Source of the DNA: Myxococcota bacterium
GTDB taxonomy: Bacteria > Myxococcota > B64-G9
Direction of reading: 5' to 3'
DNA length: 64,000 bases
Assembly: GCA_022710975.1 (NCBI GenBank)
Contig: JAKLGA010000008.1
Span: 62,001 to 126,000, forward strand
In this document: positions 25,379 through 36,283 of the stretch, piece by piece
Numbering within the stretch: the stretch's first letter is position 1
Layout: each line of letters opens with the position of its first letter
Made by a program: the position numbers and the translations under genes
The notes under the pieces: generated by a model
The model's database searches: none
What the model was told of the DNA's origin: nothing
What the model saw: the letters and a program-made list of their open reading frames with translations, nothing else

Positions 25379-27541
25379 ATGGCCGAGGCGAAGACGAGGA
25401 CCGCGATCGACATCGACAAGCTCGAGGCGGAGTTCGAGGCGGATCCGGGCAGCTTCGTGCCGTTGGCCCGTGCCTACCTGGAGCGCAACCTGCCGTTGCA
25501 GGCCGTTGCGGTGTGCAAGCGGGGCCTGGCCCGCAAGCCGGACGCCGAGGACGGCTTCCTGGCCCTGGCCCAGAGCTACTACCACGCCTTCGACGACACC
25601 CGCGCCGAGGTGGCGCTGAAGCGGGTGCTGCGTTCGAAGCCCGACCACCCCGTGGCGCTGCGCACCCTGGGCGAGATCTTCCTCGACCGCAAGCAGGAGC
25701 AGAAGGCCCTCGAGGTGCTGCGCCGGTCGCTCGAGGCCCAGCCGCGCGACTCCCAGACCCGGGCGCTGCTCACCTCGCTCGAGGAGAAGCTGCCCCCGCT
25801 CAAGGGCGAGAACGGCCAGCTCAAGCTGGAGTGGCCCAGCCGCCAGCGGTTCCCCACCAAGGTCCCGCCCCGGCCCGCCTGGCACTCCGTGGCGCAGGTG
25901 GTCGGCGTGGCGGTGGTGATGGTCGGGCTGTTCTTCTGGTACCAGCACGTGGTCCACATCGAGAGCCTGATCCGCGAGGCCAACAAGAAGGCCACCGCGC
26001 TCATGCCGCGCGACAACTTCGACGACCTGCAGCAGTCCGAGAAGGGCTTCTACGAGGCCCTGGCGCTCGACCTGGACGACGAGAAGGCGCGCACCCGGCA
26101 GTCCTTCGTGCAGTCCCTGCTGTTCAGCCGCCACGGCCAGGCCGATCGCCTGGCCAAGCTGAAGGACCACCTGGCCTGGATGCAGGCCGAGGAGCTCCAG
26201 GTCTCCGAGCGCTACGCCATCGAGGGCATGCTCCTGCTCCAGGAGGGCAAGGCCGAGGAGGCGGAGAAACTGCTGTCCGGCATCATCCAGCGCGCCATCG
26301 AGCAGAAGGACATCTTCCTCAACGCCATGGTGTTCGGCGTGCGCGGGGACGCCTACCTGGCCCAGGGCAAGACCAACGAGGCGCGCGAGGACTTCAGCCG
26401 CGCGGCCAAGTTCAGCGGCGACAGCCCTCACTTCATGGCCGAGTTCGCCGAGGTCTACCTGCGCGAGGGCAACCTGTCGCGCGCGGTGCGCTACTTCCGC
26501 GACGCCCTGCGCGTCAACCCCGACCACATCCAGTCGAACCTGCGGCTGGCCACGGCCTACCTGCAGGACGGCCGGGCGCTGATCGGCGCCAAACCCATCC
26601 TCGGCCTGCTGACCAACCCGGAGAAGCACCAGGAGGCGGAGTTCTCCCCGCCCCAGCTCGGGCAGCTCTACACGCTGCGGGCCGAGGTGGCCCTGGCCGA
26701 TCCCGAGCAGGGACCGGAGCAGGCCAAGCCGCTCCTGGCCAAGGCGCTGGAGGCCTGGGAGCGGAACGCCGAGGCCTACAACCTGCAGGGCCGCCTGGCG
26801 GCCCTGGACAAGGACGCGGCCGCCTCGGCCAAGGCCTTCGCCCGGGCCATGGAGATCGATCCGCGCCTGCCGCGCATCTACTTCGACCGCGCGGAGTCGA
26901 TGTTCTTCCTGGAGCAGAAGCAGGAGGCCGTGGACAAGCTGGCGGAGTTCGAGAAGTTCATCCAGCCGACGGTGCCCTACCGGGTCAAGCGCGGCCAGCT
27001 GCTCATGCGCATGGACAACCTGGACGGCGCCCTGGAGGAGTTCAAGAAGGCCGTGGCGATCGACGAGCTCAGCCCCGAGGCCCGCTTCCACGTGGCCCTC
27101 ACCTACCAGACCCAGGGCGCGAAGCTGGGTGACGACAAGACCAAGGCCGACCAGAAGATCGCCATCTACAACCAGGCCCGCGAGGAGTACGAGAACACCA
27201 TCATGCTGCCGGGCGGCGAGCGCCCCGAGGTCTACCGGCAGATGGGCCTGATGTACCTCGACATGGACGACTTCACCACCGCCATGGACAAGCTCGCGCA
27301 GGCGGTCGTCATGATGACCAAGGCCAACCAGCCCGGCGCCCGGATCGCCGAGGTCTACGAGGACATCGGCAAGGTGTTCGGCGAGATGGGCGGCAGCGAA
27401 GGCGAGAAGCAGCAGAAGGCCTACCAGGCCAAGGCCCAGGCCCTGCGCGAGGGCAAGTCGGTGGACGAGGTCGAGAAGGCCTGGGCCGAGAAAGAGAAGC
27501 AGGAAGCCGCCAAGCCGCGCCGCCGCAAGCGGGCTGGCTAG
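25379..27541 (+). CDS. Membrane-anchored TPR-repeat protein
   Basis: A 720-residue protein with GGAGG 6 bases before the ATG. Residues about 15-140 contain three TPR-like repeats (PLARAYLERNLPLQAVAVCKRG, FLALAQSYYHAFDDTRAEVAL, ALRTLGEIFLDRKQEQKALEVL). A single transmembrane helix follows at about 172-190 (VAQVVGVAVVMVGLFFWY). The remaining 500 residues are further TPR units (AEFAEVYLREGNLSRAVRYFRDAL and MGLMYLDMDDFTTAMDKLAQAV are clear examples) and a Lys/Arg-rich end. TPRs on both sides of the membrane suggest an assembly platform linking cytoplasmic and periplasmic partners. Partners are not evident from neighbours: the cyclase operon is divergent, and the giant repeat gene converges 6 bp after the stop. 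Confidence 0.75.
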   Translation: MAEAKTRTAIDIDKLEAEFEADPGSFVPLARAYLERNLPLQAVAVCKRGLARKPDAEDGFLALAQSYYHAFDDTRAEVALKRVLRSKPDHPVALRTLGEIFLDRKQEQKALEVLRRSLEAQPRDSQTRALLTSLEEKLPPLKGENGQLKLEWPSRQRFPTKVPPRPAWHSVAQVVGVAVVMVGLFFWYQHVVHIESLIREANKKATALMPRDNFDDLQQSEKGFYEALALDLDDEKARTRQSFVQSLLFSRHGQADRLAKLKDHLAWMQAEELQVSERYAIEGMLLLQEGKAEEAEKLLSGIIQRAIEQKDIFLNAMVFGVRGDAYLAQGKTNEAREDFSRAAKFSGDSPHFMAEFAEVYLREGNLSRAVRYFRDALRVNPDHIQSNLRLATAYLQDGRALIGAKPILGLLTNPEKHQEAEFSPPQLGQLYTLRAEVALADPEQGPEQAKPLLAKALEAWERNAEAYNLQGRLAALDKDAAASAKAFARAMEIDPRLPRIYFDRAESMFFLEQKQEAVDKLAEFEKFIQPTVPYRVKRGQLLMRMDNLDGALEEFKKAVAIDELSPEARFHVALTYQTQGAKLGDDKTKADQKIAIYNQAREEYENTIMLPGGERPEVYRQMGLMYLDMDDFTTAMDKLAQAVVMMTKANQPGARIAEVYEDIGKVFGEMGGSEGEKQQKAYQAKAQALREGKSVDEVEKAWAEKEKQEAAKPRRRKRAG

Positions 27542-27547
27542 CCTGCC

Positions 27548-30500
27548 TCAGTCCTCCCCCTCCGCGTCGCCGTTCGCCTCACCTCCGGCCAGGGATGCCA
27601 GCAAGGCCAGGGCGTCCTCGACGCTCACCCGGTCGGGCACCAGCGCGCTCACCACGGCCGCGAGCAGGTAGGGCCACGGGTCGGGCGCGCGGCCGGCCTG
27701 GAGCGCGCCCTGCGCGGCTTTCCACAGCGGGTGCGCGGGATCCAGCCCACCGCCGCCCGCCTCGATCAGCCGCGCGCCGTCCCCTCGCTCGAGACGCAGC
27801 GCGGTCAGGTACTTCTCGAGCTGCCGGGCGCGCAGGGCCGGCAGGACACGGCGCCCGACCCGGCCGAGGCGCGCGCGGAGCTGCCCGAGCAGGCCGGGAT
27901 CCTCGAAGCGGGCGCGCGCGCGCCAGGCCTTGTCCGCCAGCACCAGGCGCCGGCCGAGCAGGCGCCGCAGGACGGCCAGCTCGGCCTCCCCCGCCCTGAT
28001 CACCCGCGCCCAGGGCCCGAGCGGCGCGCCGCCCTGGAGCGGCGCCTGCCCCCGCACCGCGGCGGACAGCACGGCCAGGCGCCCGGCCGCGGCCTCGGCC
28101 ACGGCCTCCTGGGCCGACAGAGGCCAGCCCTCGAGGGCCGGGAAGACGGGGGCCGCGAGCAGGGCCTGGCCGACGGCGCCGGCCTGGATGGGCTCGAGCT
28201 CCGCCGTCAGGCCGGCCAGGTGCGCCTCGAGGGCCGCGATCAGGTTCCCGCGCTCCTCGGGCGTGGCCTCGCCGCGGGCGGTGGTCTCCTCCGCCAGGCG
28301 GCCCACGACGCTCCACAGCGCCGCGTGGAGCAGGGACTCCAGCGCGGCGAGCTGGGCGGGCTCGGCCGGCCGCTCCCAGCCCGCGTCCACCGCCAGGCCC
28401 CCCAGCGCGAGCTCGGCCAGGCCCGTCAGGGGGTGCGGGAAGGTGTGCGTGCACAGCAGCCGCCCCTCCACGATCAGGCGGGCCTCGATGCCGCCCCGGC
28501 TGGCGGGCCCCTCCGCGGACAGCCCGACCTGGCCGCGGACGCGCAGCGCGCCGTCCTGCTCGAGCGCGGTCCGGCGCAGCCAGCGCAGGGCCGGCAGGCT
28601 CTCGGCCGTGGGCGCCTCCAGGCGCCTCTGCTGGGCCAGCTCGTCGAGGCGGAGCTGCTCCGCGCCGTCCCGCAGGGCGCCCGGGCCGAACAGGGCCTCG
28701 AGGGTCGCGCGCAGGCGCGGCTGCGCCCCGCTCAACATGATCCGGCCGCGCGCGGGCCTGCCGGACAGCGCGTCCACCACCCACAGGGAGCCGTCCCGCG
28801 AGACCGCCTGCGCCAGCTCGCGCGCGCTCCAGACCTCGCCGCTCAGCCCCTCGAACACCCGCGCCCCGGCCAGCGCGCTCTCCCAGGGCGCGAGCCCCGC
28901 CCCCGCGAGCTCCCCGGCCTTGCCCGTGAACCGCCCGCGCAGGCCGTCGCGGAGCACCAGGCGCACGGCCTGGGTGGCGCCCGGGCCGCAAGCGCCGCCG
29001 TGCAGCGCCTCCACCGCGGCCAGCACGAGCTGCTCGGCGGCCCGGCGCAGGACGGCCTCGGCCGCGGCCCAGGCGCCGTCCGCGAGCACGTCCTGGAAGT
29101 CCGCGCGCGGCTGGAAGGCCTCGCTCGAGACCACCCCGCACAGCGGCAGCTGCAGGAGGTCCACCTGGCGCTCCCCGACCAGGCGCCCCCCCAGCAGCAG
29201 GGTGACGAGCGAGGCCGGGCCCGCCGCGGGCTCCAGGGGCAAGCCCAGCTCGCCGGTCAGCCCCTCGCCCGCCAGGGGCACGCACAGGGCGGTGGCCACC
29301 TCCAGGCGCGCCGGCCGTGGGGCCTGATCCAGGAAGGCCAGCGCCACCAGCTCGCCCTCGAGCGCCTGGGAGTGATCGCGGGCCTCGCCCCCCAGAAGCC
29401 GGGCCACCAGGTTGGCGAGCCTGGAGGGCACCCGCAGGATCGGCAGGGGATCGCGCTGGCGGCTGGCCTCGCGCGAGGTGAACCGCACGAGCGGGCGCCC
29501 CTGGCCGGCGCCGACGAGCGCGGCCAGCCCGTCCAGGTCCAGCAGGCCGTGGCCCACGCTGGGCAGCAGCCGGGCCTGGCGCAGCGCCGGCGGCACCTCG
29601 GCCAGCTCCTTCGCCCGGGCGAGGCGCACGCGGAAGACCTTCTGGCGGAGCTCGAGCGGCACGTCCTCGCGCACGGCCAGCGCCTCGAGCAGCGCGGGCA
29701 GGCGCTCCCGCACCGCGCCCAGCAGGCGCTCGACCCCGGGGCCCTGGACGGCGTCGAACAGGTCGTTCGCCGAGACGTCCCCCATCCCGCCCAGCTCCGC
29801 CACCGCGCGCACCGGCACCGGGGCCGGGAACTCCAGGGTGCACACCGGCAGCCCGAACAGCAGACAGGTCAGGCGGCCCTCGGCCTTGCCCGAGATCGCC
29901 GCCCCCACCTGGCCCGGCGCCACCTGCGCCGGCAGGTCGAGCGCCACCGTCACCTCGCCCGGCGGCAAGCGCGGGGCCTGGGCGCGACGCTCGGCCGCGG
30001 CCACGTTCTCCTCGCGCTTGCGCCTGCGCTCTGCCTCCAGGGCGCGGGCCGCGCGCGAGGCCGCCAGCGCCGCCTGGCCGTCGGCCAGCCGCCCGGGACC
30101 CAGCCAGGACCGCAGCAGGCGCCGCTCCAGCCCGCTCAGGTTGAGGATGTGCGCGTCCTCGTCGGTGTCGCTCCAGGGCTGCGCCTCGACGCAGGCCCAG
30201 GCCGGACGCGGGTCCGCCCGCAGGTCGGCCAGGCAGAACGCCCGGCCGCCCAGCGCGTGGAACAGGGGCCAGCCCGCCAGCCAGTCGGGCACGGCCTCCG
30301 GCGCGGGTGTCCAGCGCTCCAGCAGCCGGTCGACGTGCGCGCGGACCAGGGACGCCTCCGGACCGAGGCCGAAGCGGAGCCGCGCCGCCAGGGGATCGCG
30401 CGGCGCCCGGGGACCCTGCGCGGTCCAGCGGGGCAGGCGGGCCGTGGGCTCGGGGGGGGGCAGCACCGGGAAATGCCCGGCCAGGGCCGCGAGCAGCTCG

Positions 30501-32227
30501 GGCGCGGCGGCCTCCAGGCGGGCGAGGGCGGCCTGGTAGGCCGCGTCCTGGAGCAGGCCGTCCCAGGCCGGCGTGGGCGTGAAGGCCGGCGACTCCAGCT
30601 CGGCGTAGGCGACCGCGCCGGGCTGCGGCAGCTCTTGCGCCAGGGGGATCCCCTCGCGCCGGAAACTCACGCAGCAAGCGTGCGCCTCCAGGGGCACGGC
30701 CAGCAGGCCGGCCTCGCCCGAGAGCGGCAGCGCCTCGTCCTCCAGGGGCACGCGCACCAGCCAGTCGCCCTTCGGCAGCCGGGCGGGTCCGCGCCCGGCC
30801 TCGCGCGACCGCCGGTTGGAGGCGATCCGCTCGCGCTCCTGGAGCTCCTCGTCCACGTGCGAAAGCGGGCCGAGGCACGCCTCCAGCGCCTCGCGCTGCC
30901 AGGCGCCCTCCCCTTCGAGGCACACCACCAGCCAGCCCTCGGGCAGCTCCCCGGGCGCGAGCTCGTACGCGCGCCGGGCCACCCGGCAGCAACCCGCCCG
31001 TCGCCGGTGGCTCCACACCTCGCCGAGCGTGAGGCGCCGCCCACCCACGGCCGCCGGCAGCAGCTCGGGTACCTCGAGCAGCGCCGTCAAGCCCGCGTCG
31101 CCCTCCGGCGCCGAGTCCGGCCGCAGCAGCAGGCGCGCTGCGAGCTGCACCCTGCGCCGCCAGCCGCTCCGCTCCGCGGGCCCCGCGCCCGGGCCCAGGC
31201 GGGAGAGCTCCTCGGTCAGCCAGGTGCGCATGAGCTGGGGCAAGGCGTTGCGCGCCGCGCGCAGGCAGGTCTGGTAGGTGCCGTCCTTGATCACGTCGCT
31301 GTGCGAGGCGTTGCGCCTGAGGGCCGGGTGCTCGACGAAGCCCACCGCGCCGGCCTGGGCCAGGAGATCCTCGTGGAGCTCGGCCTCGGAGACCACCACG
31401 CCCGCCAGGCATAGCCACAGGTGGCAGCCCAGCCCGGCCTCGGCGGGCAGGGCCAGCGCGCCGCGCACCTGGCCGGTCTGGAAGGCGCAGCGGGCGACGG
31501 CGTCGGGCGTCAGCGCAGCGCGCAGATCGCGCCCGTTCAGGGTGACCGGCACGGACGCGAAGCGGCAACCGGCCTCCAGCAGGGGCTCCTCGGGGTTGCG
31601 CACGAACAGCGCCTCGCGCACCACCTTCCAGCTCATGCGTTCGCGCAGGTGGACGCGCGTGCCCTGGGGCGCCTGGCCCGGGCCGAGCTCCTCGAGCGTG
31701 AGCGCGCCCAGCCCCTCGACGCGCAGGCGCAGGCCCTGGGCGCCGTCGCCCGACTCGACCGTCAGCCACCTGGGCTTCAGGGCCAGCGCGGTGTCGAGCC
31801 CCAGGGCCAGGTGGCGCAGCCGCGCCAGGTGGGCGTCGGCGGCGAACAGGTGATCGAACAGGTGCTCGAGCTCCTCGCGGCCGAAGGGCGTGCCGGCGCA
31901 GGTGAGCACCAGATCGTCGGAGTCCATGCGGATGTCCACCTGCGGCGCGCCCGTGGCCACGCCGGCCCGCACGAGCTCGAGCGCGTACATGTGGGGGTCG
32001 GCGAGCTGGAAGCTCTTGATCTTCTCCTGGGCGCGCGCCAGGTCGAGGCGGAAGCGGCCCTCCTCGACCACCTCCCCGGCGCCGCGGGCCTCGGCCAGCA
32101 GCCGCTCCAGCTCCGCGCTGGGCGGCGGCGTGGGCGTCGGCATGGGCTGCGGGCGGATGTCCGCCGGGCTGGCCGGCGCGGCCTTCGCCCCAGGGCGGCG
32201 CCTGCCCGATCGCGGCTTACGCCCCAT
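27548..32227 (-). CDS. Giant HSP90-related repeat protein with degenerate GHKL domain
   Basis: A 1,559-residue protein of no family I can name. Start ATG 32227 overlaps the stop of the HSP90-like gene by 11 bp. Residues 1-45 are basic then Pro-rich. Residues about 60-230 align in order with an HSP90/GHKL ATPase domain, but key residues are lost: the N-box E-x-x-x-N-x-x-D reads ELVRAGVATG (Asn and Asp replaced by Ala) and the DxGxG box reads CAGTPFG. The rest is five copies of an A-B module of about 240 residues. A-parts begin near 251, 503, 772, 991 and 1231 (GQVGL/GELGLPLE type). B-parts lie near 386, 650, 885, 1119 and 1357 (PVFPALEGWPLS, PLFHALGGRAFCL, RVFEGLSGEVWS). The neighbour's A and B parts resemble them. 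No signal peptide or membrane helix is evident. Probable cytosolic partner or scaffold of the HSP90-like ATPase; function unknown. Confidence 0.75.
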   Translation of the reverse strand: MGRKPRSGRRRPGAKAAPASPADIRPQPMPTPTPPPSAELERLLAEARGAGEVVEEGRFRLDLARAQEKIKSFQLADPHMYALELVRAGVATGAPQVDIRMDSDDLVLTCAGTPFGREELEHLFDHLFAADAHLARLRHLALGLDTALALKPRWLTVESGDGAQGLRLRVEGLGALTLEELGPGQAPQGTRVHLRERMSWKVVREALFVRNPEEPLLEAGCRFASVPVTLNGRDLRAALTPDAVARCAFQTGQVRGALALPAEAGLGCHLWLCLAGVVVSEAELHEDLLAQAGAVGFVEHPALRRNASHSDVIKDGTYQTCLRAARNALPQLMRTWLTEELSRLGPGAGPAERSGWRRRVQLAARLLLRPDSAPEGDAGLTALLEVPELLPAAVGGRRLTLGEVWSHRRRAGCCRVARRAYELAPGELPEGWLVVCLEGEGAWQREALEACLGPLSHVDEELQERERIASNRRSREAGRGPARLPKGDWLVRVPLEDEALPLSGEAGLLAVPLEAHACCVSFRREGIPLAQELPQPGAVAYAELESPAFTPTPAWDGLLQDAAYQAALARLEAAAPELLAALAGHFPVLPPPEPTARLPRWTAQGPRAPRDPLAARLRFGLGPEASLVRAHVDRLLERWTPAPEAVPDWLAGWPLFHALGGRAFCLADLRADPRPAWACVEAQPWSDTDEDAHILNLSGLERRLLRSWLGPGRLADGQAALAASRAARALEAERRRKREENVAAAERRAQAPRLPPGEVTVALDLPAQVAPGQVGAAISGKAEGRLTCLLFGLPVCTLEFPAPVPVRAVAELGGMGDVSANDLFDAVQGPGVERLLGAVRERLPALLEALAVREDVPLELRQKVFRVRLARAKELAEVPPALRQARLLPSVGHGLLDLDGLAALVGAGQGRPLVRFTSREASRQRDPLPILRVPSRLANLVARLLGGEARDHSQALEGELVALAFLDQAPRPARLEVATALCVPLAGEGLTGELGLPLEPAAGPASLVTLLLGGRLVGERQVDLLQLPLCGVVSSEAFQPRADFQDVLADGAWAAAEAVLRRAAEQLVLAAVEALHGGACGPGATQAVRLVLRDGLRGRFTGKAGELAGAGLAPWESALAGARVFEGLSGEVWSARELAQAVSRDGSLWVVDALSGRPARGRIMLSGAQPRLRATLEALFGPGALRDGAEQLRLDELAQQRRLEAPTAESLPALRWLRRTALEQDGALRVRGQVGLSAEGPASRGGIEARLIVEGRLLCTHTFPHPLTGLAELALGGLAVDAGWERPAEPAQLAALESLLHAALWSVVGRLAEETTARGEATPEERGNLIAALEAHLAGLTAELEPIQAGAVGQALLAAPVFPALEGWPLSAQEAVAEAAAGRLAVLSAAVRGQAPLQGGAPLGPWARVIRAGEAELAVLRRLLGRRLVLADKAWRARARFEDPGLLGQLRARLGRVGRRVLPALRARQLEKYLTALRLERGDGARLIEAGGGGLDPAHPLWKAAQGALQAGRAPDPWPYLLAAVVSALVPDRVSVEDALALLASLAGGEANGDAEGED

Positions 32228-33893
32228 CGGCGGCCCCCCGCGCCTGCAGGCAGCGCTCCGCGAGCGACGCCACGCGCCCGCCGTCCCCGCCCTCGGCCAG
32301 CAGGATCGCCGCGCCCAGGAGCAGCGCGGCCAGCTCCGGCGCGCCTGGCGCGAGCGCCAGGCAGCTCGCGACCAGCGGCGCATCGCGTAGCAGGACCACC
32401 TGGCGGGCCCCGCCCAGCAGGCTCGGGCGATCGTCGTGCCCGGGCCGGGTCAGGCCGTGAGCCTCGCGCTGGCGCACGTGCACCCGCCCCGCCCACGGGC
32501 TCCCGTCGCCCTCCAGGCGTCCCAGGGCGACGGCCTCCACCTTCAGGCCCGCCTCGCGCAGCAGCTCCCCGACCCGCGTGGCCAAGGCCTGGCCGGCCGG
32601 ATCGAGCTCCACCGGCGCGGGGGCGCAGAACACCTGCTCCGCCCGCCACACCGGGCGCTGGCTCAGCTGCGCCAGGAAGGGCCCGAACCCGTCGAGATCG
32701 CGCAGCACGCGCACCCCCTGCGCGTGCAACAGCTGCGTGACCCGGCTGTCCGCGGCCGCGAGCAGCAGGGCGCCGTCCGGGCCCTCCAGCCGGCCCAGCG
32801 CGCGAGGAGACAGCGGCGCTCCCTGGAGCACGGGCAGCACGGGCTCGTCCCGCAGGAACCTCGCGAGCTGCATGCAGGGCAGCCGCGCGTACCGGTAGGC
32901 GGCCTCCGGCGTGAGCCCGGACGCGCCCGGTCCGCCGCCCTCGCGGGCCAGGCGCTCCAGGGTGTCCACCAGGCGCGGCCTGAGCTGGTCGGCCACCACC
33001 CGCCGCACCAGGGCGAGCAGCCGGTCGTAGCCCTCGTCCTGGCGCACGTTGTCCCGCGTCAGGGTGTGCTCCAGGTCGCGGCTCTTGATCCGCAGACTGA
33101 GCCCGGCCAGGTCCGCGGCGGCGCCGGGCAGGCGGGTGTCCTCGAGCAGGGTGAGGCCGCGGTTGTAGAGGCCGACTTGCGGGGCCAGGTCCCCGTCGTC
33201 CGGGCCGCCCGGCAGGTGCTCGGCGAACCCCACCCAGAGCTCCGTGCCCTCCTCCTGGTGGTGCACCGCCAGCGGCGCGTCCAGGGTGAACTCCTGCCGG
33301 ATCGGCTGACCGTCGGCGAGGATGTCGCACTCGGCGAACTTGCACCAGAAGCGCGCGGCCTCCACCCCCTGGCGGCGCAGCTCCTCGAAGGCCGGCCGCG
33401 AGAAGCACTTGAGCAGGCGCACCGTGGTGCCCTCGACCGGCTCCGGGAGGCGGGCCTTCTCGAAGCGGCCATCCGGCTCGAACCGCACGCGCCAGGCCTC
33501 CCCGCCCCGGCCTGTCTCGACCACCACCAGCTCGGGCTCCAGGGCGAAGAGGCTGACGAAGCCGATGCCGAACTTGCCGATCTTGGTCCGGTCGCCCTCC
33601 TTGGTCGAGCTGAACAGGGTCAGCAGGTAGTCGTCGATGATGCGCTCGTCCATTCCCTCGCCGTTGTCCTGCACCTCGATGGTGCCGAGGCCCGCGGACG
33701 GATCCGCGCCCGTGCCCCGGTACAGGAAGCGGACCTCGATGCGCGTGGAGGCCGCGTCGAGGCTGTTCTGGATGAGCTCGCGCAGGAAGGCGAACGGGTC
33801 CGTGAACTGGTGGACGAGCTCCTGGAAGGCCTCGGAGGCGCCCACCACCGAGCCCCGGACCGCCCGCCGGGGCGATGCCTTGGACGATTTCAT
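32217..33893 (-). CDS. HSP90-type GHKL ATPase
   Basis: A 558-residue cytosolic protein. The N-terminal ATPase domain is complete: N-box RELIQNSLDAA (Glu39, Asn43, Asp46), DNGEGMD at 76-82, a lid start GKFGIGF at 106-112 and a Thr-rich segment EGTTVRL. Residues about 215-315 resemble the HSP90 middle domain (VGLYNRGLTLLEDTRLPG, then RDLEHTLTRDNVRQDEGYD, matching the SRE..Q-type segment of HtpG). A B-type module (PVLPVLQGAPLSPRALGRLEG, about 350-410) and a divergent C-terminal part follow; the usual HtpG dimerisation domain is not recognisable, and it is shorter than HtpG (about 620-640). It is coupled to the giant repeat protein by an 11-bp overlap. Probably a chaperone-like ATPase specialised for that partner. 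Confidence 0.82.
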   Translation of the reverse strand: MKSSKASPRRAVRGSVVGASEAFQELVHQFTDPFAFLRELIQNSLDAASTRIEVRFLYRGTGADPSAGLGTIEVQDNGEGMDERIIDDYLLTLFSSTKEGDRTKIGKFGIGFVSLFALEPELVVVETGRGGEAWRVRFEPDGRFEKARLPEPVEGTTVRLLKCFSRPAFEELRRQGVEAARFWCKFAECDILADGQPIRQEFTLDAPLAVHHQEEGTELWVGFAEHLPGGPDDGDLAPQVGLYNRGLTLLEDTRLPGAAADLAGLSLRIKSRDLEHTLTRDNVRQDEGYDRLLALVRRVVADQLRPRLVDTLERLAREGGGPGASGLTPEAAYRYARLPCMQLARFLRDEPVLPVLQGAPLSPRALGRLEGPDGALLLAAADSRVTQLLHAQGVRVLRDLDGFGPFLAQLSQRPVWRAEQVFCAPAPVELDPAGQALATRVGELLREAGLKVEAVALGRLEGDGSPWAGRVHVRQREAHGLTRPGHDDRPSLLGGARQVVLLRDAPLVASCLALAPGAPELAALLLGAAILLAEGGDGGRVASLAERCLQARGAADGA

Positions 33894-34153: not shown

Positions 34154-36283
34154 ATGCACTCGGCGCCTGCCCTGCTCGCGGTTTCGCTGGCCGCCCTGCT
34201 CGCCCCGGGCCTCGCCCCGGCGGCCGAGCCCAACCCCTACTTCCGCCTGCTCGAGCGCTCCACCCGCTTGCAGGCCGGTTTCCGGGCGCTGCCCCTGGGC
34301 CTGGAGTTGCTGCCGCACCCCTTCGCCTCGGGCACGCCGCTCTTCCCGGCGCTGCTCGACTCGGCCGATCCGGCCGCCACGGCGGCCGCCGTGGAGCAGC
34401 TCGGCGGACGGGCCGCCAGGCCCATCGGCAGCGTCCTGCCGGTGCGCGCCAGCCTGGAGGCGCTCTCGGCCCTGGCCTGCAGGCCGGAGGTCAGGCGGCT
34501 GGAGGCCCGGCCACCGCTGCGGCCCCGGCTCGACCTCAGCCGCCCCGACGTCAGGGCGGATCAGGTCGAGGCGGGCGTCGGCCTGCCCCTGCCCGTGGAC
34601 GGCAGCGGCGTGCTGGTCGCCCTGGTGGACACCGGGGTCGACTTCCGCCACCCGGACCTCCTCAGCCCGAGCGGCCGGACCCGGGTCCAGCTCCTCTGGG
34701 ATCAGGCCTTCGGCTCGGGCGCGCCGCCCCCGGGCCAGACCGTGGGCAGCCTGTGCGACCGGGACAGCCTGGTGCGCGGGACCTGCACCTCCATCGACCT
34801 GGTGGGCCACGGCACGCACGTCACCGCGACCATGGCCAGCTCGGGCGAGGCCTTTCGCGGCATGGCGCCGGGCGCGGACATCATGGCGGTGGCCTCGCTC
34901 GACTTCGCCCTGCTGGTGGAGTCGGTGGACTGGCTGTTCCAGCAGGCGGCCGAGCGCGGCCAGCCCATGGTGGTCAACCTGAGCCTGGGCGGGCACTACG
35001 GCCCCCACGACGGCACCGCCCTCGAGGACAGCGCGCTGTCCGCGCTGACCGGGCCCGGGCGCATCATCGTGGCCGCGGCCGGCAACGAGGGGAACGACCG
35101 CATCCACCTCGGCTACGATCCGCAAGGCGGCACGGGCAAGACCCTGCTCGCCATCTACGGGGGCATGGACGTGAGCGCGGCGCTGCTGGACACCTGGGTC
35201 GCGCCGGGCGCCCAGCTCGAGTTCGCCGTGGGCGTGCAGCGGGACGGCCAGGAGGTGGCCGAGACGCCCTTCACCGCCGCGGCGGGCCCGGGCGGCGCCT
35301 ACCCGCTCGAGGACGCGGACGGCACGCCTCTCGGGCGGGTGGACTTCCAGCCCGCGGCCGGTCCGGACGCGCAGAACGGCAAGCAGCAGCTCGACCTGGT
35401 GATCGAGCCGACGGAGAACGCCTACGCCGGGAACGCCCGCGGCTACGCCTGGTACGTGAAGGCGCGGGGGAGCGGGGCGTTCGACTGCTGGAGCGCCGCG
35501 GCGGGGTTCTTCACCTCGCCGGCGCTCTTCTCGGATCGCAGCGACGGGGGGCTGGTGCCGGGCGACACCCGGCTGACGGTCGGCGCGCCGGCGGTGGCCC
35601 GGGACGTGCTGGCCATCGGCTCCTACGCCACGCGCGCCGCCTGGACCGACGCGCACGGCGCGGCGCAGGACCACCCTGAGACCACCGAGGGCGACCTGTC
35701 CTTCTTCTCCAGCCGCGGCCCCTCGGCCGATCCCGAGCGCACCGGCCAGAAGCCCCTCCTGGCCGCGCCGGGGGAGTTCATCGCCGCGGCCATGTCGCAG
35801 AGCACGGGCGAGATGACCGACGGGACACAGCTCGACGAGGGTCACCTGGTCATGCGCGGCACCAGCATGGCCTGCCCCCACGCCGCCGGCGTGGTGGCGC
35901 TCATGCTGCAGGCCGATCCCCTGCTGGAGCCCGCCCGGGTGGCCGAGATCCTGGCCGCCACGGCCCGGCGCGACGGGCACACCGGCCAGGACCTCCCGGA
36001 CGACGCCTGGGGCTTCGGCAAGATCGACGCGCTGGAGGCCGTGGCCATGAGCCTCGGCACCGGGCTGTGCCGGTCCCCGGCGGACTGCGCGGAGGGCCAC
36101 CGCTGCGGCGACGAGGGGCGCTGCCTGGCGGAGGAGAGCGGTTGCGCCACGGGCGGCGCGGCGGGTCCGGGGCTGCCGTTCGGCGCGCTGCTGATCGCGG
36201 TCCTGCTGCTCGGCCGGCGGCCTAGCGCCAGTCGAAGGGGATGGTCACGTTCTGCACCTGGCCCTGGAACTCGCGGAACTTGA
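34154..36283 (+). CDS. S8 subtilisin-like protease with MYXO-CTERM-like tail
   Basis: A 709-residue exported protease. ATG 34154 has GGGAGGG upstream and a signal peptide (LLAVSLAALLAPGLAPAAE). A propeptide of about 110 residues comes next. The catalytic triad is Asp159 (LVDTGVD), His219 (GHGTHV) and Ser571 (GTSMACPHAAG); an extra beta-rich segment of about 220 residues lies between the His/Asn region (AAAGNEG) and Ser. The end holds a Cys-rich stretch, then SGCATGG, a hydrophobic helix (GALLIAVLLLG) and RR, resembling the MYXO-CTERM sorting signal used for T2SS-exported surface proteins. Unusually the frame runs about 20 residues past the Arg pair, overlapping the convergent AgmX gene by 62 bp. 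It lies downstream of a structured leader. Confidence 0.9.
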   Translation: MHSAPALLAVSLAALLAPGLAPAAEPNPYFRLLERSTRLQAGFRALPLGLELLPHPFASGTPLFPALLDSADPAATAAAVEQLGGRAARPIGSVLPVRASLEALSALACRPEVRRLEARPPLRPRLDLSRPDVRADQVEAGVGLPLPVDGSGVLVALVDTGVDFRHPDLLSPSGRTRVQLLWDQAFGSGAPPPGQTVGSLCDRDSLVRGTCTSIDLVGHGTHVTATMASSGEAFRGMAPGADIMAVASLDFALLVESVDWLFQQAAERGQPMVVNLSLGGHYGPHDGTALEDSALSALTGPGRIIVAAAGNEGNDRIHLGYDPQGGTGKTLLAIYGGMDVSAALLDTWVAPGAQLEFAVGVQRDGQEVAETPFTAAAGPGGAYPLEDADGTPLGRVDFQPAAGPDAQNGKQQLDLVIEPTENAYAGNARGYAWYVKARGSGAFDCWSAAAGFFTSPALFSDRSDGGLVPGDTRLTVGAPAVARDVLAIGSYATRAAWTDAHGAAQDHPETTEGDLSFFSSRGPSADPERTGQKPLLAAPGEFIAAAMSQSTGEMTDGTQLDEGHLVMRGTSMACPHAAGVVALMLQADPLLEPARVAEILAATARRDGHTGQDLPDDAWGFGKIDALEAVAMSLGTGLCRSPADCAEGHRCGDEGRCLAEESGCATGGAAGPGLPFGALLIAVLLLGRRPSASRRGWSRSAPGPGTRGT

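Follow-up and report, generated by a model that had tools for sequence, protein, structure and literature searches.

An HSP90-like ATPase and its adjacent, degenerate giant relative with repeated middle domains in Myxococcota

We analyzed a 64,000-nucleotide stretch of a Myxococcota bacterium genome (assembly GCA_022710975.1, contig JAKLGA010000008.1, positions 62,001 to 126,000; hereafter the window), which has a GC content of about 72% and comes from a host genome of 7.1 Mb in 29 contigs. Two overlapping genes in this stretch encode what is, judged by sequence, an intact HSP90-type ATPase with an N domain, one middle domain and a C region, and a giant protein that is its degenerate sister, in which a dead N domain precedes several tandem middle domains and a C region. 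What appears to be new is that multiplication is confined to the middle domain and that the catalytic and repeat parts reside on separate genes, with HSP90-like N and middle domains; we found no description of such a pair in open-licence papers, which omit most subscription journals. We consider it about 50% probable that the two proteins form a heteromeric HSP90-like chaperone machine in which the giant serves as a multivalent client-binding arm. The two genes are the following.

32217..33893, minus strand: ATPase gene (P0002), HSP90-like, 558 aa; open reading frame (ORF), best Pfam match HATPase_c_3 (E 4.8e-12), family-profile match to HSP90 N domains in the PDB
27548..32227, minus strand: giant partner gene (P0001), 1,559 aa; ORF, no match in Pfam, NCBIfam, PADLOC or PDB sequences

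The ATPase stop codon (32217-32219) lies within the first codons of the giant gene, and the 11-bp overlap read earlier from the letters alone was verified at these coordinates. The start of the giant is not certain, with a further in-frame ATG at 32143. Because homologues of both proteins in other genomes keep the same frame and order, we regard both as real genes.

The sequence-only reading had proposed an intact GHKL ATPase in the 558-residue protein, and the motifs Asn43, DNGEGMD (residues 76-82) and GKFGIGF are indeed present. Its predicted domains are as follows.

33339..33836, minus strand: N domain (GHKL/Bergerat), residues ~20-185, with Glu39, Asn43, DNGEGM 76-81, GKFGIG 106-111 and Thr156
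32958..33338, minus strand: HSP90-middle-like domain, residues ~186-312, with Arg280 in LEHTLTRDNV; HSP90 profile match
32220..32876, minus strand: small middle subdomain and C-terminal region, residues ~340-558; half-unit match in relatives, match to the giant C-terminus

A profile built from eight relatives of the ATPase (A1) matched the HSP90 N domains in the PDB, and comparison with an HSP90 profile of the PRK14083 type gave a match (E 1e-16) that spans the N domain and runs into the beginning of the middle domain. In a survey of 195 genomes of the same phylum, we recovered 18 strong copies of the ATPase, distributed over 16 genomes. The catalytic Glu, Asn, DxGxG, GK[FY]GxG and Thr motifs are retained in all 18, and beside the motif residues these homologues show a single F-to-Y and a single E-to-S change. 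The middle-domain motif [TS]R[DE] is likewise retained throughout (18/18), at the position of the HSP90 catalytic arginine, which is Arg380 in yeast HSP90 and Arg474 in sacsin (PMC9880540).

Despite sharing with HtpG and HSP90 (PF00183; PRK14083, NF010683) a GHKL N domain with all ATP motifs and a middle domain with the catalytic-loop arginine, the ATPase scores well under the curated cut-offs of these families (53.4 bits versus 455 for NF010683 and 27.5 versus 371 for HtpG NF003555), and it is encoded with a dedicated, predicted ATP-dead giant of several middle domains, a partner that HtpG does not have. A search of the window's own genome with PF00183 gave zero matches. The scores fall just under the cut-offs for sacsin (49.2 bits versus 50 for NF047352; 30 versus 32.8 for PF25794). 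MutL, MORC and topoisomerase VI B also combine a GHKL ATPase with a following S5-like middle domain, but their matches were weaker and confined to the N domain, whereas the closest profile and fold matches were to HSP90. A single-protein scan of genome contigs returned only N domains of the HtpG and MutL types; the true relatives came from the phylum genome search.

The giant is composed of the following predicted parts, of which the repeats were located with a hidden Markov model (HMM) of the repeat unit.

31709..32110, minus strand: degenerate GHKL domain, residues ~40-173; ATPase-family profile match, jointly with the middle domain
31166..31708, minus strand: first middle-domain copy, residues 174-354, catalytic Arg lost (RNASHSDV) in the motif table; unit HMM E 6e-18
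30425..31105, minus strand: repeat unit 1, residues 375-601; unit HMM E 4e-35
29663..30304, minus strand: repeat unit 2, residues 642-855; unit HMM E 4e-31
28952..29614, minus strand: repeat unit 3, residues 872-1092; unit HMM E 1e-31
28226..28897, minus strand: repeat unit 4, residues 1111-1334, second half (1165-1325) modelled and compared with Foldseek; unit HMM E 5e-33
27863..28186, minus strand: half unit (small middle subdomain), residues 1348-1455; unit HMM E 9e-9
27551..27862, minus strand: C-terminal region common to the ATPase C-terminus, residues 1456-1559; profile match

The N-terminal 350 residues of the giant, represented by 19 relatives, gave a match to the ATPase family that spans both the N and the middle domain (E 7e-14), and the C-termini of the two proteins matched each other in profile comparison (E 2.1e-6). 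The Asn, DxGxG, GxxGxG and catalytic Arg positions are lost in 19 of 19 giants, with the Glu position retained in nearly all, and the complete set of ATP motifs (E, N, DxGxG, GxxGxG) occurs in 18 of 18 ATPases versus 0 of 19 giants. The loss of these motifs, together with the profile matches, therefore identifies the giant by sequence as an ATP-dead sister of the ATPase, in agreement with the earlier suggestion of an inactive HSP90 relative.

Segments of the giant matched one another with E values down to 2e-16, and the reversed and shuffled controls all remained above 0.05. The unit HMM resolved the window giant into a middle domain, followed by four full units and, at the end, a half unit. 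The giants of family f8 contain six full units and the short giants about two, and the ATPases contain only the middle domain and the half unit. In register, each unit corresponds to a single HSP90-like middle domain with a large and a small part, the small part being putatively assigned from its position. The ATPase has one middle-domain copy, the window giant five and the longest giants seven; the number varies between lineages and is constant inside a lineage. To characterize the fold, we modelled residues 1165-1325 from the window sequences only, using no templates and six alignment rows, with a predicted local distance difference test (pLDDT) score of 62 and a predicted template modelling (pTM) score of 0.47. 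The 50 best PDB matches listed by Foldseek were all HSP90 structures that include the middle domain, many of them isolated middle domains, with a best E of 2.2e-3, no single match under E 1e-3, and probabilities up to 1.00. The consistency of these matches is the persuasive part of the case for an HSP90 middle-domain fold in the model. Direct profile matches between HSP90 and the repeats are weak unless the ATPase or the first middle domain of the giant serves as an intermediate, so that the identity of the repeats rests on transitive profile matches and on fold comparison. A model of giant residues 37-610, built from two rows, had a pLDDT of 39 and gave nothing under E 1e-3 and several weak matches to GHKL ATPases in Foldseek; it was not used as evidence. 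Overall, the proposal that the giant was built by domain multiplication holds, the repeated piece being the HSP90 middle domain according to the self-matches, the unit HMM and the modelled fold.

A giant lies directly downstream of the ATPase in 18 of 18 cases, counting two copies that are split by contig ends and for which the adjoining fragment is visible, and the two genes overlap by 4 bp in 10 of the 18 pairs. The trees of the ATPase and of the giant agree in their four groups. Two genomes have two pairs, and each of these pairs falls into its own group in both trees, which indicates that the pairs were inherited as units. The description of the giant as a fixed partner, made before any survey, is thus upheld by gene order, with one exception: a short giant of 673 aa (L142:1115-3136, genome G003) that has no adjacent ATPase gene, in a genome that possesses HtpG. 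Neither outcome named beforehand as refuting the earlier reading occurred: the two genes are not mostly apart, and the modelled repeat does resemble HSP90. We also observed a single 1,548-aa protein (L144:7714-12360, genome G155) that matches the giant N domain weakly (E 9e-9) among unrelated flanking genes and is possibly another HSP90-like giant.

A third protein family (alignment A11; 285-345 aa), for which we found no Pfam or PDB match, is encoded beside or near many pairs, and its gene overlaps the ATPase start in two cases (G000:C1 and G007:C320). In the phylum search, the third protein was found in 15 of 16 genomes with a pair versus 1 of 179 others (Fisher p 3e-20), the matches being weak in one pair genome (G054) and in the sole pair-less genome with a match (G040). 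For this reason the label “two-gene system” given earlier is too narrow. In one genome (G194), an AAA ATPase gene (L140:3125-4792) separates the third gene from the pair. Examples of the third gene are the following.

L048:10191-11192: third gene
L050:7689-8717: third gene
13 other genomes: further copies

Two related arrangements were found in the phylum beside the ATPase-giant pair (type A). In type B, two HSP90-like ATPases are adjacent, and the second has intact ATP motifs and an HExxH motif at its end. In type C, the HSP90-like ATPase has a transglutaminase-like domain (Transglut_core, E 5e-6) between two hydrophobic segments, and a degenerate GHKL partner of about 505 aa follows downstream with a 4-bp overlap and matches the N-plus-middle part of the giant (E 8e-16). 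Type C has the look of an ATP-powered device that places one domain beyond the inner membrane. Taken together, the three types show that the combination of an HSP90-like ATPase with a second GHKL protein recurs in this phylum, with a degenerate second protein in types A and C. The loci are listed here.

L049:6146-11124 (G000:C12); L052, L062-L066, L068, L069 and L143: type C, with a GDCD...HAW...D triad
L057:8242-12259; L058, L059 and L060: type B, with a terminal HELAHxCHE metalloprotease-like motif and a weak WLM match

The eukaryotic parallel raised in the sequence-only reading was sacsin (SACS, PF25794; NF047352), which also joins an HSP90-like N domain to an HSP90-middle-like region carrying a catalytic arginine, and which, like the giant, is a very large protein enlarged by internal repetition (PMC9880540, PMC3629688). 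Sacsin contains the N-plus-middle module three times, each predicted to be ATP-competent, as well as UBL, J and HEPN domains. In contrast, the giant multiplies the middle domain only, its single N domain is predicted to be dead and the ATPase is on a separate gene; UBL, J and HEPN domains were not found in the giant in a Pfam search, which returned no family at all. The comparison therefore stands for an HSP90-like domain with internal repeats and fails for repetition of the ATP-binding domain.

The HSP90 middle domain is the region that contacts clients and co-chaperones. The parts are those of a chaperone, and this, the absence of a predicted membrane anchor common to the ATPase and giant family, and the absence of a defence island in the pair neighbourhoods lead us to favour a heteromeric HSP90-like chaperone machine. 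Also in its favour are the motifs retained in the ATPases and lost in the giants, the profile matches and regular repeats, the strict adjacency and co-inheritance of the pair, the third protein, the absence of PRK14083 from the pair genomes of family f8 and the lack of a PF00183 match in the window's genome. In such a machine, the ATPase and the giant would assemble through their common N and/or C regions, and the small subunit would bind and hydrolyse ATP, which the giant could not. The giant would present its HSP90 middle domains, lined up in about three to seven copies depending on lineage, as a long multivalent binding arm, and ATP-driven closure of the catalytic subunit on the giant N domain might then grip, remodel or release large or extended clients. 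The third protein of about 300 aa may be an adaptor or co-chaperone.

Several observations weigh against this explanation. The C-termini of the ATPase and the giant match each other, but the profile match to true HSP90 extends no further than the middle domain, which makes HSP90-style C-terminal dimerization putative, and complex formation, ATPase activity and chaperone activity are all predicted properties of the pair. The giant evolves faster than the ATPase. The repeat model drew on the window alone, and one of its six rows is the middle domain of the ATPase itself. The window pair has no third gene next to it; the only copy in this genome adjoins its second pair, on contig 1. Lastly, in family f8, PRK14083 occurs in 0 of 11 pair genomes versus 64 of 85 others (p 1e-6; 21 genomes have neither), but the exclusion reaches only p = 0.06 at the genus level, so that shared ancestry (one split in the f8 tree) may explain it. 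HtpG is not excluded, being present in 4 and absent from 12 of the 16 pair genomes (p = 0.19, not significant).

A wider version of the chaperone explanation, which we put forward tentatively, is an obligate heteromer of a catalytic HSP90 subunit, an ATP-dead subunit with 3-7 middle domains acting as arm or ruler, and a third adaptor; it would belong to a wider group of HSP90s with degenerate partners that includes the membrane transglutaminase-like version, and would stand in for ordinary HSP90 in some lineages. To our knowledge, HSP90s are dimers of one chain. If the chaperone explanation is true, ATPase and client-binding work would be split over two proteins, with the client-contacting domain multiplied, and the contributions of the middle domain and of the second ATP site would become separately measurable. 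The pair would also offer a compact bacterial counterpart for sacsin, whose size and repeats hamper biochemistry, and the conserved third protein family would be a previously unlisted component.

The pair could instead be an ATP-driven regulatory switch, or a dedicated assembly factor for one large machine, for instance one for motility or in the envelope, for which the giant would be a ruler-like scaffold. A repeat number that is specific to each lineage and constant within it would suit a ruler, and the predicted solubility of the giant and the co-occurring dedicated third protein fit as well. We nevertheless consider this unlikely, for no conserved machine other than the third protein neighbours the pair, which occurs in genomes of different families among ordinary and varying genes.

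Somewhat more doubtful is a conflict or anti-phage system, in which the GHKL ATPase would be the switch and the giant an invader sensor or effector scaffold, comparable to Tiamat (TmtA). The patchy distribution (16/195 genomes) would suit such a role, as would the transglutaminase-like domain of the membrane version (type C), a fold that also occurs in conflict effectors. The PADLOC TmtA models match the N domain of the ATPase with a best E of 5e-13, but this match is limited to residues 28-124, the generic GHKL part, and the giant is unmatched; moreover, these models describe single long proteins (1,063-1,782 positions). Neighbours of the pair are ordinary, varying genes (tsaD, lpxB, TPR and signalling genes) whose PADLOC matches look like generic homologues, and Pfam recognised no effector domain in the giant. 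Among viral contigs and plasmids, matches to the ATPase were weak and confined to its N domain, with no close relative, and plasmids gave no match to the giant, so that a mobile origin is unsupported. Least probable of all is that the proteins are merely co-transcribed and act separately, the ATPase as a homodimeric HSP90, as HtpG is in bacteria, and the giant as an independent scaffold; the orphan short giant would allow this, but it is opposed by the 18 of 18 ATPases adjoining a giant, the co-inheritance of paralogous pairs and the repetition in type C of an ATPase with a degenerate partner and 4-bp overlaps.

At the window locus, the pair had been placed between a convergent TPR gene and a divergent RNA/protease locus. 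Because an Rfam search of the window gave zero RNA families, the RNA half of this description is unsupported; the two protein-coding neighbours are as described, the protease being a subtilase.

25379-27541, plus strand: TPR gene, convergent with the pair
34154-36283, plus strand: subtilase gene, divergent from the pair

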